Source: Enterobacter oligotrophicus (GTDB taxonomy: Bacteria > Pseudomonadota > Gammaproteobacteria > Enterobacterales > Enterobacteriaceae). Taken from it: DNA of 64,000 nt. The DNA is taken from NCBI RefSeq assembly GCF_009176645.1, contig NZ_AP019007.1:4412586-4476585 (forward strand), in the 5' to 3' direction. How positions within the stretch are numbered: the first letter of the stretch is position 1; the number at the start of each line of letters is the position of its first letter. Below the pieces are notes generated by a model that had not been told where the DNA came from, ran no database searches, and worked only from the letters and a program-made list of their open reading frames with translations. The position numbers were made by a program, and so were the translations under genes. This document shows, one piece after another, positions 41,017-49,772 of this stretch.

Positions 41017-41087
41017 AGGGCGGTGGGTAAACTTCAGTCGCGTGATCTCGATCATGTCTAAACTAAAACAGAAAAAGAGAAATGGCT

Positions 41088-41723
41088 ATGCAACATATCA
41101 TTGAAGGTTTTCTCAGCTTTCAAAAAGAGATTTTCCCGCAACGTAAAGAGCTCTTCCGCAGTTTAGCGTCCAGCCAGAATCCCAAAGCGTTGTTCATCTC
41201 CTGCTCCGACAGCCGTCTGGTTCCCGAGCTGGTCACCCAGCAAGAGCCGGGACAGCTCTTTGTCATTCGTAATGCTGGCAACATTGTGCCACCGTTCGGG
41301 CCGGAGCCGGGTGGTGTATCCGCCACCATCGAATACGCTGTCGTGGCGTTAGGCGTGACCGATATCGTGATCTGCGGTCACTCTAACTGTGGCGCAATGA
41401 AAGCAATTGCCGACAATGCGAACCTTGAGCCAATGCCTGCGGTGTCTCACTGGCTGCGTTACTCCGATGCGGCAAAAGCGGTGGTTGAGAAGAAAACCTG
41501 GGACACGCCCGTCGATAAAGTGAACGCAATGGTGCAGGAGAACGTGTTTGCACAGCTGAGCAACATTAAAACGCATCCGTCGGTTGCTGTTGGTCTGCGC
41601 AACAACTCCATTCGCCTGCACGGCTGGGTATATGACATCGAAAGCGGCGAAATCCGTGCGCTGGATAAAAACAGCAAAACCTTCGTGTCTCTGTCTGAAA
41701 ACCCGGAAGTCTTCTTCGAGTAG
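41088..41723 (+). CDS. beta-class carbonic anhydrase (CynT-like)
   Basis: 211 residues, similar to E. coli CynT (219). Zinc ligands are Cys39 and Asp41 in [13 protein letters not shown] and the His/Cys of [20 protein letters not shown] and [11 protein letters not shown] are family motifs. It interconverts CO2 and bicarbonate in the cytoplasm. No cynS or cynX lies nearby, so the cyanate context is absent. Either 41082 or 41088 could be the start; the family's MxxIIxG pattern favours 41088. Confidence 0.88.
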
Positions 41724-43347: not shown

Positions 43348-43484
43348 CGACACTCTTCCTTCGTTTTATTGTCATATGAAAAGCGTAGCAAAAGAAGCGG
43401 TGAATCAGCGCGCGAAAATTCAGTCACATATTGATACCAAATTAAACGTACCCGCTGAGTATTTCCTGTTTTGATGACGGTTTG

Positions 43485-43504
43485 AATGTTATATCGTAAC
43501 GCTT
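43485..43504 (+). promoter_or_regulatory. Zur-like sequence upstream of the HflKC/P-type ATPase operon
   Basis: AATGTTATATCGTAACGCTT compares with the Zur consensus core AATGTTATANTATAACATT: the left arm is exact and the right arm keeps GTAAC. It lies 79-98 bases before the GTG start at 43583, in the only sizeable gap of the operon. About 15 of 22 consensus positions match, which is moderate. If real, the operon is induced by zinc starvation. Confidence 0.45.
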
Positions 43505-43582
43505 AAATCACGATCCGTGCGCCATTCCTGCTATTACCGTATGTATTTCAGCCAGGCAGGCGAAACTAATGGGAGTACCAGG

Positions 43583-45481
43583 GTGTCGTTACCGCTATTG
43601 CAGAATAGCGCTCAGGTAAGTCGTTTGCTGCAGCGCCTTCTGATCACAAAAATTTGTCTTTACGGCTTTCTGCTGCCCGTCGGCCTTGTTTACCTTTTTC
43701 TGCATCTATTCTCTGACGTCGCAATCTGGTTATTTGCATTTCGGCTGCTGCTGGCTGCGGGGCTGGTGGCGATGGCGTTTGTAGAAAACGCGCTACGCTG
43801 TGAACAAGCTGCAGCACCGGTCGCGGAAATGCCCGCAGAGGAGCCTGCTTCCCCGGAGCCTAAACGGTTGCAGCTGCCACCGCAGTTGCAGGCCTGGCTA
43901 TCGCATTTTCACCAGCATCTGGTCACTACCGCGACGATTTCCGTGCTGGCTCTCTGTTTTGCTATCGCAAACCTTGCCGATGCGGCGTTGTTCAGCGAAG
44001 CAGACACGGTTATCAGCCGCGTGATCCCTGGGGTGCTTCTGCTGCTGAGCTTTGGCCTGCTGGTCATTGAACGCATGATCAGCTTTAAAATTGTCCGCCA
44101 CTGGCGCTATCAGCGCGAATATATCGGGCTGGCGCGTGCGATGCTCAGCCTTCTGCTGGTGCTTGCCGCTGCGCTGCTGCTGGTGATCTTTTCCCCAACG
44201 CTGGCGCTGTGGCTTTTCCGGCTTGGCAGCTTGCTGGTCCTCGTGATGGCGCTGGAATATCTCCTGCGTACCCTCATCACCGCTCTCACGCCGCTTCCGG
44301 CGGATGAGGCTCCCCGTTTTCTGACGGTCAGCACCGTTGCTGCCTTGTACCGCTGGCCTCTGCGCCCACTGACGGTGGTTCTGGACGCGCTTGAGCAGCG
44401 TTTTGGCATTGATCTACGCCAGGTGCAGGCGTTTCGCCTGATGGGAAAAACGGTTTTGCCCGTAGCCTTTGGCATTGCCGTACTGGGCTGGTTGCTGAGT
44501 GGGTTGACGGAAGTCCCGCTGCAGCAGCGGGGGATTTACGAACGTTTTGGCCGCCCGCTGGCGGTGCTCTCTCCGGGGCTGCATGTCGGATTGCCCTGGC
44601 CATTTGGTCGGGTTCGCCCCGTGGAAAATGGGACGGTACATGAGCTGCGGCTCAGTGATGAACCGGAATCGCAGGCGCAGAGCGCAGAGCCCGACAGTGC
44701 CGAAGGTCCTGCACCGCAGAGTAGCTGGCGCTTGTGGGATAGCAGCCATCTGACCGATCAATCACAGGTGATTGCCAGCAAGGCTAACGACCGCCAGAGT
44801 TTTCAGATAGTAAATATGGATATCCGCCTTATCTGGCGCGTCGGGCTGCGTAATGAGGACGCGCTTAACAGCCAGTATCAGGCCGAAGATCTGCCTGTGC
44901 TGATCCGCAGTATTGCCCGACAGGTGCTGGTGGTGCAGTTTGCCAGCAAGCAGCTGGATGTGCTGCTCAACGAGCAGCGCGCGAGCCTGGCGTCAGCGCT
45001 TAACCGGCAGATCCAGCAGCGTTTAGTGACACTGCATACCGGCGTGGAGCTGCTCTCAACCCGAATAGAAGCGATTCACCCGCCTGCGGGGGCCGCCGAT
45101 GCCTGGCACGGCGTGCAGGCGGCGCAAATAGCCGCCAGCGCGCGGGTCGCCCGTGAGAAGGGGTATGCCGCCACGGTGACTCGCGAGGCGCAACAAAAAG
45201 CGGAAAACCGCGTAAACGACGCGCAGGCCTTTGCCGCAGAAGATCTCGCGCGTGCCAGAGCGGAAGCGATCCATTTTGCGGCGGACGAGCAGGCGTGGAA
45301 GCAGGCCGGCGCGGCATTCCTTCTTGAGCGCCGTTACCACATTCTCAGCCAGAGCCTGGCGCATACACCGCTTTTGATCCTGGACGACCGTTTGCAGGGC
45401 ACCCGCGAGCCCGTACTGGATTTGCGCCAGTATCCTGCATTATCCGACAGTACCGCACCACAGAAGGCCAGCACGAAATGA
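43583..45481 (+). CDS. HflK-like SPFH membrane protein with N-terminal membrane extension
   Basis: About 632 residues. The first 330 residues hold several hydrophobic segments (for example ICLYGFLLPVGLVYLFLHLF, TATISVLALCFAIANLADAAL, LLLVLAAALLLVIFSPTLALWLF). Then comes an SPFH/prohibitin domain (QQRGIYERFGRPLAVLSPGLHVGLPWPFGRV) with a helical tail (ARVAREKGYAATVTREAQQKAENRV). The domain resembles HflK, which with HflC forms rings around FtsH in E. coli. GTG at 43583 has GGGAG seven bases upstream; GTG at 43517 is possible. Begins a run of four overlapping genes. Confidence 0.75.
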   Translation: MSLPLLQNSAQVSRLLQRLLITKICLYGFLLPVGLVYLFLHLFSDVAIWLFAFRLLLAAGLVAMAFVENALRCEQAAAPVAEMPAEEPASPEPKRLQLPPQLQAWLSHFHQHLVTTATISVLALCFAIANLADAALFSEADTVISRVIPGVLLLLSFGLLVIERMISFKIVRHWRYQREYIGLARAMLSLLLVLAAALLLVIFSPTLALWLFRLGSLLVLVMALEYLLRTLITALTPLPADEAPRFLTVSTVAALYRWPLRPLTVVLDALEQRFGIDLRQVQAFRLMGKTVLPVAFGIAVLGWLLSGLTEVPLQQRGIYERFGRPLAVLSPGLHVGLPWPFGRVRPVENGTVHELRLSDEPESQAQSAEPDSAEGPAPQSSWRLWDSSHLTDQSQVIASKANDRQSFQIVNMDIRLIWRVGLRNEDALNSQYQAEDLPVLIRSIARQVLVVQFASKQLDVLLNEQRASLASALNRQIQQRLVTLHTGVELLSTRIEAIHPPAGAADAWHGVQAAQIAASARVAREKGYAATVTREAQQKAENRVNDAQAFAAEDLARARAEAIHFAADEQAWKQAGAAFLLERRYHILSQSLAHTPLLILDDRLQGTREPVLDLRQYPALSDSTAPQKASTK

Positions 45482-46479
45482 AGATCCACTCCATCACCTC
45501 TTCGGAACACGCGGAAAAAGTTGGCATACGTCAGATGACGTCGCCCGCGCCACAGCGCCACAAGCGGACGTTACGCATCGGTATTGCGGTATTGTTACTG
45601 GTGCTGGCGGTGCTCACCGCCTGCCTGCTTGACGTCAGCGCAGGCAGCGCGACGGTAGTGACGCGCTTTGGCAATCCACAGCGGGTCTTGCTCTCGCCCG
45701 GCCTGGCGTGGCGTTTCCCGGCACCCTTTGAAACGCCGGTGAATGTCGATTTACGCGTGCGTTCAACGTCCAGCGGTTTGCAGGACGTTGGCACGCGTGA
45801 CGGGCTGCGGGTGCTGGTGCAGGCGTGGGTTATCTGGAAGGTGAAACCGGATAATGACAACGTGCTGCGCTTTATCCGCGCCGTGCAGAACCAGCCGGAT
45901 GAAGCGGCTCGCCAAATCCGTACTTTTATTGGCTCGGCACTGGAAACCACCACCAGTAACTACGCGCTGGCGGATATCGTCAACGTCGACAGCAAGAAGG
46001 TCAAAATCGCTCAGCTTGAGCAGGCAGTGCAGGCGCAACTGAAAGCGCAGCTTCTCAACAGCTACGGCATCGAGGTGATCCAGACCGGTATTGAGCGCCT
46101 GACGCTACCGGCCGTGACGCTTAACGCCACCGTTGACCGCATGCGTGCCGAGCGGGAAACCATTGCAGCGGAGCGGACGGCTGAGGGGAAACGGCTGGCG
46201 GCGGAGATCCATTCACAGGCGGATCGCGATGGACGCATTCTGGAAGCTGATGCCTCCGTTAAAGCGGCGGCTATTGCCGCCAACGCACAGCGCGACGCAG
46301 CGGCAATATATGGCAAAGCCTGGGCCAGCGATCCGCAACTTTATAGCCTGCTGCGTTCCCTGGATACACTCAGCACCATCGTTAATGGCAACACCCGCCT
46401 GGTGCTGCGTACCGATGCAGAACCGTTCCGCGCGCTGGTGCAGGGGCCAGACCAAACACCAGAGGCGGCTAAACCATGA
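45478..46479 (+). CDS. HflC-like SPFH protein
   Basis: 333 residues with one N-terminal membrane segment (RIGIAVLLLVLAVLTACLLD, near 35-54) and an SPFH domain (TVVTRFGNPQRVLLSPGLAWRFPAPF). The helical tail has MRAERETIAAERTAEGKRLAAEI, close to the HflC/stomatin coiled-coil. It is not the housekeeping HflC, which lies beside hflX. ATGA overlap with the previous gene. It probably forms a hetero-oligomer with the flanking HflK-like proteins. Confidence 0.78.
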   Translation: MKIHSITSSEHAEKVGIRQMTSPAPQRHKRTLRIGIAVLLLVLAVLTACLLDVSAGSATVVTRFGNPQRVLLSPGLAWRFPAPFETPVNVDLRVRSTSSGLQDVGTRDGLRVLVQAWVIWKVKPDNDNVLRFIRAVQNQPDEAARQIRTFIGSALETTTSNYALADIVNVDSKKVKIAQLEQAVQAQLKAQLLNSYGIEVIQTGIERLTLPAVTLNATVDRMRAERETIAAERTAEGKRLAAEIHSQADRDGRILEADASVKAAAIAANAQRDAAAIYGKAWASDPQLYSLLRSLDTLSTIVNGNTRLVLRTDAEPFRALVQGPDQTPEAAKP

Positions 46480-47546
46480 TGCAGCCACCGCTGAAGCGCA
46501 CTCCCTGGGGGCAGTCATACCGGATTGCGTTCTTTGCCCTGTACGGCGCGGCGATTATCGCGGCCTGCGCGTGGCTGTTTTCCAGTATTTATCAGGTCGC
46601 CCCGGACAGCCGGGCGATCGTTTACCGCTTTGGTAAGCCCGTTCGTGTGGAAAACGCCGGGTTGCTGTTTGCCTGGCCCTATCCGATTGAACGCGTGGAG
46701 CGGGTGCCCGGCGAGGAGCGAATTCTGGAGCGCGATGTTCAGGCGTTGCAGCGCAGTCAGCAGCTTGATCAGATCAACAGCTGGGAGCGCGATGGTGATG
46801 CCGGAGCGGGGGCGGGCTACCTGCTTACTGGCGATGCCGGGGTCGTACAGCTGAACGTGCGGGTCTTCTGGCGCGTCAGCGATCCTGTCCGATACGCGCT
46901 TCAGCGTCCGCATATCGATCCGCTGATCGACCGCCTGACCGAGCACGCCGCGGCGGTTGTCTGCGTGGGACGCGATCTGGATTCGATCCTGGTGACCCGT
47001 CCTGAGACGCTGCAAAACGATCGCCACGCGGCCCAGGAGCGGCTTCAGCTACGCAGCGACTTCAGAAAGGCGATGACGCAAAGTCTTACCCTGCTGGCTG
47101 CCGGAGGGAACGATCCGGGCATTCGCATTGAACGCGTTGATATCACCTCTTCTTTGCCCCAGAACGCGGTGGCAGCGTTTAATGCGGTGCTGGCGGCAGG
47201 GCAGCAGGCGGAGCAGGCCGTAGCCAGCGCCCGCACGGCGGCGGCGCTGCGTACCCAGCAGGCGCAACAGCAGGCGGATCGGACGCTTCAGCAGGCGGAG
47301 GCGGGGCGTCAGGAAATTCTCGCGCAGGCCAGTGTCGACACCCGCACCATTATGCAACTGGCCCAGGCGAGGCGTGAAGGGGCCGATGGGGGTCTTTTGC
47401 AGCGCCTGTGGCGTGAAAAAGTGACGGCTATTCTGGCGCAGGCGGGGCAGGTGATTACCGTCGCGCCGGGCGACGACAGCCGCTTGATCCTGCAGGGGTT
47501 GCCTGCACAATCCGCCACTCCGACCGTTAGCGAGAAAAAACCATGA
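46476..47546 (+). CDS. HflK-like SPFH protein (second copy in operon)
   Basis: 356 residues: membrane segment IAFFALYGAAIIAACAWLFS, SPFH start YQVAPDSRAIVYRFGKPVRVENAGLLFAWPYPIERV, and a long Ala/Gln-rich helical tail (AEQAVASARTAAALRTQQAQ onward). It begins ATGATG at the end of the HflC-like gene (overlap) and overlaps the ATPase gene by 4 bases. Presumed partner of the two other SPFH proteins; function inferred only from family and context. Confidence 0.77.
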   Translation: MMQPPLKRTPWGQSYRIAFFALYGAAIIAACAWLFSSIYQVAPDSRAIVYRFGKPVRVENAGLLFAWPYPIERVERVPGEERILERDVQALQRSQQLDQINSWERDGDAGAGAGYLLTGDAGVVQLNVRVFWRVSDPVRYALQRPHIDPLIDRLTEHAAAVVCVGRDLDSILVTRPETLQNDRHAAQERLQLRSDFRKAMTQSLTLLAAGGNDPGIRIERVDITSSLPQNAVAAFNAVLAAGQQAEQAVASARTAAALRTQQAQQQADRTLQQAEAGRQEILAQASVDTRTIMQLAQARREGADGGLLQRLWREKVTAILAQAGQVITVAPGDDSRLILQGLPAQSATPTVSEKKP

Positions 47547-49450
47547 GCCACCAGTGCAGCCACGGACACTTTCACTTTGACGGCAATCTGCAAACACCAG
47601 CCGAGCAGAGGCGTATGCTACGTCAGTTAACGCTGACGATGATCACTATTGGCTTGCTGCTGCTGAGCCTGCTCTGGAAAGCGCTTGCGCCTGAGCAACC
47701 CGGCATTAGCGACATCCTGGCGGGCATCGCGTGGCTGCTGGTGGCTATCCCGGTTTTTCGGGCCGCCTGGCACAGCCTGCTGCATCCCGATCTGCATGGC
47801 GTAACCGATCTGCTGGTGGTACTGGCAATGCTTGGTGCGTGGGCACTGGGTGATTTAATGACCGCCGCGCTGCTGCCGGTGATTATGATTTTCGGTCATA
47901 TTCTTGAAGAGCGCAGCGTGATGGGAACCCGTCAGGCTATCGCCGGGCTGAGCAAACTGACGCACAGCCAGGCCAGGCGCGTGCGGGCAGACGGTGCGCT
48001 TGAGCAGATCGACAGCCAGCATCTCCACTCTGGCGACGTCGTTGAAGTGCGTGCCGGCGACAGGGTGCCCGCTGACGGGCAGATCCTTTCCGGCTATGCC
48101 AGCCTGGACGTGGCGCACATTACAGGTGAATCCGTACCGGTTGAAGCGGCAGCGGGAATGGCTGTGTTTGGCGGAAGCATTAATCTGAACGGCCTGCTGC
48201 GGGTGAAGGTCACCCACACGGGTGAGCAGTCGACTCTGGGGAAAGTGATTGCGCTGATGCAGGACGCCAGCCAGGCAAAGCCGCCGATTACCCGGATGTT
48301 AGAGCGCTATGCGGGCCACTATCTCATTCTGGTGCTGCTGATTGCGGCAACCACCTGGTTTCTGACGTATAACAGCCAGGCGATGCTGGCGGTGCTGGTT
48401 GCCGCCTGTCCCTGTGCGCTGGTGCTTTCAGCGCCCGCAACCGCAATGGCGGGGATAGCTGTGGCGGCACGACACGGTATTTTGATTCGCAACGCGGCAT
48501 TTCTGGAAGAGCTGGCGGATGTGGATGCCCTGATTGTGGATAAAACGGGGACCCTGACTCAGGGGAAGCTCAGTGTCGTCGACGTGATGCTGGCGACCGA
48601 CATGCCGCGTGAGCGCGTAATGCAACTGGCGGCAGCGCTGGGAGCTACCAGTAACCATCCGGTGAGCCGGGTGCTGGCCGGGACGGTGTCCGCGCCAGGT
48701 GAGGTAACACTGCGAGACATTGAAGAAATTCAGGGCATTGGCGTTGTGGCGACAACCGACGAAGGGCTGGCATTACTGGGGCAGCAGGCGCTGTTTGCTC
48801 GTTACCACATTGCGGTATCACCAGTGCCGGAGCACGATGGCCCGGTGGTTGGCCTGGCGCACGCTGGCGTTTTTCTTGGCTGGTTCCTGCTGGAGGATAC
48901 GCTTCGCCCCGAGGCACCGGAGATGGTTGCGATGCTCAAATCACTGGGTATTGACAGGCAACAGCTGCTGACCGGCGATCGTCTGGCGGTGGCGAAGCGG
49001 GTGGCGCAGCAGGCGGGGATCGACGAACTTTCCGCCGGGGCGCTGCCTGCGGAAAAACTGCGTCAGGTGCAGCGTGTTGTTGATGAAGGGTGGCGGCCAA
49101 TGGTGGTCGGAGATGGTATCAACGACGCGCTGGCGTTAAAAGCCGGTGCGGTTGGTATTGCGATGGGTGGTAATGGGGCGGATATTGCGCTGGCCTCGGC
49201 TGACGTGGTGCTTACCGGCTCTGATTTACGCCGCCTGCCATGCGCCATTCGGCTGAGCCGAAAATGCCGTGCCACGCTGCAGGTGAATGTGTTTATCGGG
49301 TTGGGCTGGACGCTGTTAATCGTCTCTGCCGCCGCAATGGGGCTGCTTGGGGCCACCGGGGCGCTGATTGCCGCGATTCTCCACAATCTGAGCACGCTGC
49401 TGGTGCTGCTCAATACCGGGCGCTTATTACAGTTTGATGAGACAAAGTGA
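47543..49450 (+). CDS. heavy-metal P1B-type ATPase (HmtA-like)
   Basis: 635 residues. The N-terminus is His-rich (MSHQCSHGHFHFDG) in place of a CxxC metal domain. Actuator TGESVP, membrane metal site CPC (AACPCALVLSAP), phosphorylation DKTGTLTQGK, nucleotide-binding SNHPVS and hinge GDGINDALAL are all intact, so it should be active. The last helix has HNLSTLLVLLNTGRLL, unlike ZntA (Asp) or CopA. It resembles in length and context the P. aeruginosa HmtA (PA2435), reported to take up zinc and copper and also flanked by hflK/hflC-like genes. Metal and direction of transport are inferred. Confidence 0.82.
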   Translation: MSHQCSHGHFHFDGNLQTPAEQRRMLRQLTLTMITIGLLLLSLLWKALAPEQPGISDILAGIAWLLVAIPVFRAAWHSLLHPDLHGVTDLLVVLAMLGAWALGDLMTAALLPVIMIFGHILEERSVMGTRQAIAGLSKLTHSQARRVRADGALEQIDSQHLHSGDVVEVRAGDRVPADGQILSGYASLDVAHITGESVPVEAAAGMAVFGGSINLNGLLRVKVTHTGEQSTLGKVIALMQDASQAKPPITRMLERYAGHYLILVLLIAATTWFLTYNSQAMLAVLVAACPCALVLSAPATAMAGIAVAARHGILIRNAAFLEELADVDALIVDKTGTLTQGKLSVVDVMLATDMPRERVMQLAAALGATSNHPVSRVLAGTVSAPGEVTLRDIEEIQGIGVVATTDEGLALLGQQALFARYHIAVSPVPEHDGPVVGLAHAGVFLGWFLLEDTLRPEAPEMVAMLKSLGIDRQQLLTGDRLAVAKRVAQQAGIDELSAGALPAEKLRQVQRVVDEGWRPMVVGDGINDALALKAGAVGIAMGGNGADIALASADVVLTGSDLRRLPCAIRLSRKCRATLQVNVFIGLGWTLLIVSAAAMGLLGATGALIAAILHNLSTLLVLLNTGRLLQFDETK

Positions 49451-49511
49451 ATGCGAGATGGACACTACAGGCAAATGCAGGTTAAGCCTGCACTACATGA
49501 GGGTGAACAGG

Positions 49512-49772
49512 ATGAAAATCAGTAAACTGGTTGCGATTTCGTTGTCGGTTGTCTCGACGGGGGCGCTGGCATTTCAGGCGAAAGAAAACATCAATCCGGC
49601 GATCTCTGCGCAGCAAATGCGAAATGTGGAGAATAATATTCTCAGTGGTTATTACAGCGAGCACGGCGAGCGACCACAAATTTCTGCCCTCGGGACTTGC
49701 GCTGCTGTGCCTGTACCTGGCTGTACTTGCCCGTACTGTACGGCGCTGCGCTCAATTAAAAATGGAATATAA
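49512..49772 (+). CDS. small exported Cys-rich protein
   Basis: 86 residues from MKISKLVAISLSVVSTGALA (signal peptide, probable cut after LAFQA). The mature part ends CAAVPVPGCTCPYCTALRSI with four cysteines (CTCPYC). It is preceded by AGG and lies 61 bases after the ATPase gene on the same strand. Not recognised. A periplasmic metal-binding or metal-handing role fits the Cys cluster and neighbours, but is inference. Confidence 0.6.
   Translation: MKISKLVAISLSVVSTGALAFQAKENINPAISAQQMRNVENNILSGYYSEHGERPQISALGTCAAVPVPGCTCPYCTALRSIKNGI

Follow-up and report, generated by a model that had tools for sequence, protein, structure and literature searches.

The stretch of Enterobacter oligotrophicus DNA analysed here (64 kb of contig NZ_AP019007.1; hereafter the window) carries a five-gene operon (Table 1) in which three genes for SPFH (HflK/HflC-type) proteins are followed by a gene for a P1B ATPase and by one for a small exported cysteine peptide, and which is preceded by a sequence resembling the operator of the repressor Zur. 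The open reading frames bear out the layout described in the first-pass annotation, with ATGA overlaps at all three junctions of the SPFH1, SPFH2, SPFH3 and ATPase genes (45478, 46476 and 47543) and a fifth gene whose ATG (49512) lies 61 bases beyond the ATPase stop codon. Translation of SPFH1, for which the open reading frame list gave a start at 43517, likely begins at GTG 43583, since a GGAG lies 7 bases upstream of this codon and the matching start yields similar lengths in relatives (630-633 amino acids in six of them, about 610 in locus L019).

Table 1. Features of the operon in the window
Feature	Coordinates	Strand	Description	Basis
Zur-like operator GAATGTTATATCGTAACGCTT	43484..43504	.	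top matrix match of the 64 kb window	
SPFH1 gene	43583..45481	+	HflK-like, 632 amino acids	Band_7, Shine-Dalgarno, relatives
SPFH2 gene	45478..46479	+	HflC-like, 333 amino acids, one membrane helix	Band_7, tree
SPFH3 gene	46476..47546	+	HflK-like, 356 amino acids, one membrane helix	Band_7, tree
P1B ATPase gene	47543..49450	+	HmtA clade, 635 amino acids	domain models, tree, signature residues
Exported peptide gene	49512..49772	+	86 amino acids, signal sequence and four Cys	family profile

The pump and scaffold genes form a conserved unit across several bacterial groups. We compared 33 loci (the window, 8 named genomes, 3 plasmids and 21 further genomes), picked because SPFH1 or the ATPase had been found in them, with a Paenibacillus locus (L009, 31%) and a broken plasmid relic (L022) excluded; the plasmid loci represent 3 of the 10 plasmid records with SPFH1, and for one Pseudomonas-type genus neighbours were covered in 10 of the 13 matching genomes. 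The order SPFH1-SPFH2-SPFH3-ATPase on a single strand is kept in all 33 loci, the genes mostly overlapping or lying close together. Interrupted genes were left unmended (SPFH1 and SPFH3 in L007, SPFH3 in L001 and SPFH2 in L047), and may reflect either sequencing error or decay. Among 398 Pseudomonadota genomes (thresholds E<=1e-60 for SPFH1 and E<=1e-120 for the ATPase, with at most three candidates scored per genome among the matches listed), SPFH1 and the ATPase mark the identical 11 genomes, the window's own included, and no others (Fisher p 1.2e-21, with kinship uncorrected and 5 genera involved).

The distribution of the operon is patchy: it occurs in 4 of 99 relatives (own genome included), in 1 of 369 genomes of a class sample (that one being the own genome), and in 13 of the 25 genomes of one Pseudomonas-type genus, as well as on plasmids of Klebsiella aerogenes, Rhizobium and Paraburkholderia. 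A near search for the operon in E. coli genomes and a distant search with the ATPase found none, and a near search of plasmids gave one relic only. Two of the loci adjoin other metal genes: in Erwinia typographi (L003 2085-3877) two genes resembling, by eye, metal ATP-binding cassette (ABC) permeases lie directly 5' of the operon, and on the Paraburkholderia sprentiae plasmid (L021) the operon adjoins annotated genes for a zinc ABC transporter, a GTP-binding protein, DUF2946 and PCu(A)C, a neighbourhood that is perhaps a zinc and copper island.

By gene order and protein likeness the window operon is of the same kind as the P. aeruginosa PA2439-PA2434 cluster (hmtA, paFlo5-7). A P. aeruginosa-like locus (L067, taken as such from genome size and gene neighbours) stood in for the PA2435 sequence itself; it consists of SPFH1, SPFH2 and SPFH3, a 162-amino-acid gene, the ATPase and a DUF4946 gene, with gcvH-gcvP-glyA-type genes (by eye) upstream, and we take this six-gene order and glycine-cleavage flank to be those of PA2439-PA2434. 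Over the best aligned stretches, the Pseudomonas-type locus and the window are 65% identical in the ATPase, 66% in SPFH2 and 52% in both SPFH1 and SPFH3. The hmtA-like arrangement named in the first-pass annotation is recovered in the core (three SPFH genes, then an HmtA-clade ATPase): relatives of all four genes stand in the same order, the ATPases fall into one clade, and the promoter is in both cases Zur-linked. The accessory genes differ, in that the window has neither the PA2436-like gene (its SPFH3 and ATPase genes overlap by 4 bases) nor the PA2434-like one, the Cys peptide gene following the ATPase instead; moreover, the window SPFH2, unlike that of the P. aeruginosa cluster, has no His-rich tail. 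The PA2436-like gene is not a core feature, since within the Pseudomonas-type family 9 of 15 loci have no gene-sized gap ahead of the ATPase. In L049, L065, L066, L067, L071 and L072, SPFH3 and the ATPase are about 600 bases apart; the space in L049, L066, L067 and L072 holds an exported-looking gene (150-175 amino acids), and the two such genes tested matched no Pfam family.

The ATPase (N-terminus MSHQCSHGHFHFDG) has E1-E2_ATPase and Hydrolase domains, scores 528 bits against TIGR01525 (cut-off 346) and carries the P1B core motifs CPC and DKTGT; Pfam models find no HMA domain in it, in keeping with its original description as an intact P1B ATPase with a His-rich start, a CPC motif and no Cys-type metal domain. 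An invariant membrane signature runs through the ATPases of all 33 loci (CPC 289-291, WT 589-590, LHN 613-615 and T618; in short CPC, WT, HN-x-[S/G]-T). With ZntA, a P1B-2 zinc exporter, the window ATPase shares the P1B core and a TIGR01512 score above cut-off, but it belongs to a different clade, lacks the HMA domain and has T107, T590 and H614 in place of ZntA E202, K693 and D714 (numbered as in the 4umv alignment), residues with a role in zinc release. All three positions differ from ZntA in 33 of 33 loci, so that the Lys of transmembrane helix 7 and the Asp of transmembrane helix 8, which accompany CPC in the P1B-2 type, are everywhere replaced by T590 and H614. CopA-like sequences, unlike the operon ATPases, have YN at 589-590 and M at 614. 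A tree was built from 49 proteins: the operon ATPases of all 33 loci, 15 paralogues from four genomes that are by eye ZntA-, CopA-, CcoI- or KdpB-like, and one Paenibacillus pump. In it the operon ATPases form one clade (support 100/100), some branches being long. A ZntA or CopA paralogue was rejected on this separate clade and on the different membrane residues; by sequence, we assign the protein to a distinct HmtA clade. The altered exit path would be compatible with an altered direction of transport, while being no proof of it. The best match in the PDB is sCoaT (7qbz), presumably of the P1B-4 type, with which the window ATPase has in common a last-helix His followed by S-T (HEGST in sCoaT, HNLST in the window) and a GH in an earlier helix, and from which it differs in having CPC where sCoaT has SPC.

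Evidence on the direction of transport comes from HmtA: metal content and metal sensitivity reportedly go up when it is overexpressed, a result for which a review asks confirmation (PMC10393844), and its expression in E. coli, where it was used as a metal importer, is reported to cause hypersensitivity (PMC5353632). By analogy, the window ATPase probably imports metal. As a separate observation, one Pseudomonas-type locus (L068 15557-15862) has directly after the ATPase a gene for a 101-amino-acid protein with a CxxC and a CCCG end, which by eye looks like a CopZ-type metallochaperone.

The Zur-like sequence reported ahead of the first gene proved to be the best match in the window to a Zur matrix for which five zinc-type promoters in this genome, but not the window operon, supplied the sites (those of zinT-, ykgM- and znuA-like genes, of a zinc ABC transporter and of a FecB-like one; the names are by eye, two having Pfam ZnuA hits). 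It scores 14.0 bits against 6.1 for the next match, and agrees with an E. coli Zur consensus in 15 of 22 letters, the second-best place in the stretch compared reaching 12. A best site 5' of SPFH1 at shuffle p<0.02 was found in 27 of the 33 loci (26 of the 32 other than the window), at 3.0 to 24.4 bits, in a sample whose loci are related and whose start positions are partly rough. The margin in matrix score and the conservation across loci led us to reject a chance motif, and by motif an operator stands before the first gene, as in a Zur regulon. Furthermore, in P. aeruginosa the PA2439 promoter is shifted by Zur in an electrophoretic mobility shift assay (Ducret et al. 2021, PMC8531726), five genes of the cluster are 5.6-14.4-fold up in a znuA mutant (Pederick et al. 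2015, PMC4542158), the cluster proteins rise on Zn depletion (p <0.05 for PA2438 only, in the table of PMC11761036), calprotectin raises HmtA (PMC8557868), and the zinc chelator N-acetylcysteine raises PA2437-2439 (log2 0.6-0.8; PMC9431628). The weak site of L067 (p 0.027) fits the P. aeruginosa cluster, where the reported site is likewise weak (E=0.11; Pederick et al. 2015, PMC4542158). Motif, conservation and these published data agree with the zinc control via Zur that had been proposed, and we regard such control of the operon as very probable; a role in zinc starvation is held with similarly high confidence.

All three SPFH proteins have a Band_7 domain and remain below the cut-offs of the HflK/HflC equivalogs TIGR01933/TIGR01932 (68.7 and 84.6 of 159.4; 104.1 of 134.4 bits), the best sub-cut-off model being HflK for SPFH1 and SPFH3 and HflC for SPFH2. 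They are separate from the housekeeping hflKC, as stated at the outset: the genome's own hflK/hflC were located at C1:2963906-2965353, apart from the operon. This location and the separate tree branches (the outside proteins being long-branched) also led us to reject a duplicate of the housekeeping pair. In the SPFH tree (14 of the 33 loci, with the short SPFH2 of L047 dropped and three long-branched outside proteins) SPFH1, SPFH2 and SPFH3 form one clade each, SPFH2 grouping with HflC and SPFH1 with SPFH3. The hydropathy of SPFH1 indicates six N-terminal membrane helices, then a seventh (the usual anchor helix) and the SPFH domain; an AlphaFold2 model has the same six N-terminal helices at a predicted local distance difference test (pLDDT) score of roughly 60-80, the whole model (pLDDT 51) being too weak for a fold search, and a match to solved HflK covers the C-terminal part of the protein. 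In comparison with the HflK/HflC-FtsH complex, the SPFH domain and the affinities to the HflC (SPFH2) and HflK (SPFH1 and SPFH3) models are common ground, whereas the window has three subunits, one with an extra six-helix domain, and a P-type pump as the partner gene.

Under thresholds of our own setting (at least 8 His within 20 residues for SPFH2, at least 4 for the ATPase), the N-terminal tail of SPFH2 is His-rich in 22 of the 33 loci, the window not among them, and that of the ATPase in 23 (the ATPase start of L021, and with it its count, being uncertain). The tail is found on SPFH2 only in 9 loci, on the ATPase only in 10 and on both in 13; the sole locus below both thresholds (L003) has 3 His on its ATPase. 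As controls, the tails of SPFH1 and SPFH3 have at most 3 and 1 His, respectively. The window's clade has the His tail on the ATPase only and two other clades have it on SPFH2 only, which, on the basis of few independent changes, looks like a single function that either partner can carry. As HflK/HflC face the periplasm (PMC2636767), the SPFH N-termini would by analogy be cytoplasmic. A physical complex of the SPFH proteins with the ATPase appears likely. A 2026 study of SPFH proteins in P. aeruginosa (PMC13086221) treated paFlo5-7 as an operon and reported mild effects on biofilm and in Galleria.

The product of the fifth gene, initially noted as an exported 4-Cys peptide, indeed has a signal sequence and, in its core, four conserved Cys (GTCxAxPxPxCxCPxCxxLR). 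A profile search returned 34 proteins of the family at E<=1, the organism-named ones being all from Enterobacterales and 'hypothetical' at NCBI; searches of Pfam, NCBIfam and the PDB gave chance-level matches only (papers were not searched for the peptide), and the structure model (pLDDT 57) was too weak for a fold search. In the window the gene lies downstream of the ATPase and has no Zur box of its own. In Kosakonia the peptide gene and SPFH1 point away from each other, with 8.7 bits for the best box; in Raoultella and Enterobacter sp. 10-1 a box (19 and 24 bits, at -108/-109) lies between the two divergent genes. In genome G012 (L101 7484-10533) a peptide with one of the four Cys missing is encoded back to back with what by eye is a zinc-type ABC operon, a 31-bit box lying between the two, and on the K. 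pneumoniae plasmid pBio30 the peptide has its own 24-bit box and, as neighbours, aztABCD and copies of thrS, dihydroorotase and hemB, which we read as zinc-sparing paralogues. On other Klebsiella plasmids it adjoins a Fur-family repressor and annotated iron ABC genes (best own site 7.1 bits), and for a copy in a prophage-like region of E. coli and two Klebsiella plasmid copies neither a strong box nor, in the annotated neighbourhood, a zinc gene was seen. From these contexts the family appears to be often Zur-linked and located beside other zinc importers, and its presence on plasmids (73 records, of which 63 are typed conjugative) suggests mobility of zinc-starvation genes. There is a parallel in the periplasmic zinc chaperone AztD, which is also exported and tied to a zinc importer, and whose gene adjoins a peptide relative on pBio30; the peptide differs from it in having 86 amino acids and four Cys, and profile and Pfam scans gave no AztD-like relative. 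On balance, the peptide rather probably binds metal in the periplasm. Among the copies away from the operon, pBio30 (L039) is typed conjugative, has several strong Zur-like sites and has the look of a zinc-starvation island; the G012 locus lies between genes resembling, by eye, an integrative element; and in the E. coli plasmid record CP088398 (L040) a family member is surrounded by phage genes of lambdoid type and is not preceded by a strong Zur box.

Taken together, these observations lead us to favour, by a modest degree of belief over its negation, a Zur-repressed and horizontally mobile metal-acquisition operon of the hmtA kind, with an SPFH-held import pump and a metal-binding peptide. 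On a fall in cytosolic zinc, Zur would leave the operator and the operon would be expressed; the HmtA-clade P1B pump would move Zn(II), and perhaps Cu, from periplasm to cytoplasm, while SPFH1-3 would co-assemble in the manner of HflK/HflC, and the pump would be held in the resulting vault or ring, itself periplasmic and anchored in the membrane, the likely dock being the six-helix membrane domain of SPFH1. Cytoplasmic His-rich tails on SPFH2, the ATPase or both would hold metal at the cytoplasmic mouth, and the exported Cys peptide would bind periplasmic metal, which the pump or other importers could then take over. Possible contributions of the SPFH trio are a gain in affinity, protection of the pump or a private pool. 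A more specific version, which we consider doubtful, is a caged importer: the vault, docked via the SPFH1 six-helix domain, would enclose the P-type zinc importer, with the peptide feeding the vault and the His tails catching zinc inside. If this were true, an SPFH cage would house a transporter instead of a protease, possibly keeping zinc for FtsH or other priority zinc enzymes, and the peptide would be the first of a class of periplasmic zinc carriers common to several importers.

Several observations weigh against the favoured operon model. The Zur matrix is partly circular, since four of its five sites were found with the pattern GTTATANNRTAAC, which the window site fits, and our confidence in Zur control is reduced on this account; the pattern gave 9 matches (6 when reversed), two of which (C1:1353034 and C1:3659133) were dropped as chance, as judged by their neighbours. 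Six of the 33 loci are without a convincing Zur site (L019, L020, L021, L057 and L072 have none, and L067 is the sixth), and some accepted sites score merely 3-4 bits. The experimental data concern the P. aeruginosa relative, and are themselves divided: hmtA mRNA is reported as constantly low and not repressed by added zinc (PMC8531726), a review excepts hmtA from the Zur-bound promoters, contrary to the mobility shift in PMC8531726 (PMC10393844), and the chelator study, in the text available, lists PA2437-2439 without naming hmtA (PMC9431628). HmtA alone, without SPFH partners, gives a phenotype in E. coli (PMC5353632), and the scaffold is therefore not strictly needed; deletion of paFlo5-7 is reported to cause no growth defect in rich medium (PMC13086221). 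The SPFH1 model is weak, and in the 18 kb covered of a K. michiganensis plasmid the ATPase is in broken pieces and SPFH genes are absent. Finally, 5 of the 9 loci of the window's clade (three of Kluyvera, one each of Citrobacter and Erwinia) showed no peptide gene close to the operon, some of these stretches being short or masked, and the peptide is on this ground optional.

The same data can be read in three other ways. The ATPase, with its SPFH platform, might be an exporter which, during zinc starvation, expels wrong metals (Cu, Co, Cd, Ni) let in by the open importers or, in the manner of CcoI/FixI, loads a periplasmic or membrane enzyme; none of the P1B structures among the matches listed is named an importer, tails rich in His on the cytoplasmic side would be apt for loading from there, the CopZ-type-looking protein after the ATPase in one Pseudomonas-type locus points the same way, and so does an hmtA mRNA that is not zinc-repressed (PMC8531726). 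We consider export unlikely, given that the reported effects of HmtA overexpression on metal content and sensitivity are the reverse of those expected from an exporter (PMC10393844, PMC5353632) and that the Zur-like site of the operon resembles those of the same genome's zinc importers. More improbable still is that the SPFH trio acts on FtsH (a zinc enzyme) or in membrane quality control, the ATPase being merely co-regulated: HflK/HflC do bind and regulate FtsH (PMC11761036, PMC13086221), and the SPFH1 C-terminal part resembles solved HflK, but ATPase and SPFH1 were never apart in the 398 genomes at the thresholds used, and co-regulation alone predicts neither the fixed gene order in 33 of 33 loci nor the His tails of SPFH2.

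Copper, rather than zinc, might be the main cargo, as HmtA is reported to take up Cu besides Zn (PMC10393844) and the Paraburkholderia locus adjoins PCu(A)C and DUF2946 genes; we give this very little credence in view of the Zur-like sites at operon loci, of the annotated zinc ABC transporter at that same Paraburkholderia locus, and of the peptide copies that adjoin zinc importers.

A zinc-importing pump held by SPFH proteins would bear on two matters at once. The large cages formed by SPFH proteins have for the most part no known cargo, and the existence of a true importer among P1B ATPases is unsettled; a conserved SPFH and P1B unit with a Zur-like operator makes both questions testable together, with zinc starvation as the condition to which this analysis points for testing paFlo5-7-type genes, and with the peptide as a handle on the periplasmic step of zinc uptake. 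As a conserved machine, the pump-SPFH pair seems undescribed in the literature searched, which includes few subscription papers. HmtA and HflC are co-mentioned merely as neighbouring genes in the available text of PMC11761036 and PMC4542158; searches for SPFH, HflK, P-type ATPase and operon jointly found nothing, those for P-type ATPase, HflK, HflC, SPFH and zinc found a co-occurrence, in the text available, only via the pump in a reference list, and those joining SPFH, flotillin, Zur and HmtA (at least three together) found none that includes HmtA. The available text of the 2009 SPFH survey contains no word beginning "ATPase" (PMC2636767), and in the main text of the 2026 paFlo5-7 study, as far as available, HmtA is unnamed and zinc appears once, about FtsH (PMC13086221). 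The predicted six-helix domain of SPFH1, the His-rich tail of SPFH2 (22 of 33 loci) and a peptide family without Pfam or PDB relatives are, as read from sequence, new here.

Regarding its genomic setting, the operon is flanked by a gene that size and position mark as ydhS-like and by a pair of tRNA-Val genes, and the E. coli-like backbone proposed for these flanks matches the gene order of an annotated E. coli genome (ydhS-ydhR-tRNA-Val-tRNA-Val-ydhQ-mdtK-ribE at the same place). Since that genome has ydhS-ydhR-tRNA-Val-tRNA-Val at this position, the operon looks like an insertion into a familiar stretch. Scans of sigma-70 promoters and of terminators found nothing. Two genes upstream of the operon there is a gene resembling, by eye, a beta-carbonic anhydrase (41082-41723), near which none of the window's eight best Zur-like sites lies. 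The start of the contig (G000:C1:1-31581) repeats positions 32367-64000 of the window at 99.5-99.9% identity with many gaps, and therefore the circular assembly was probably left untrimmed, giving repeated contig ends; a frameshift in SPFH1 is present only in the contig-start copy of the repeated region.

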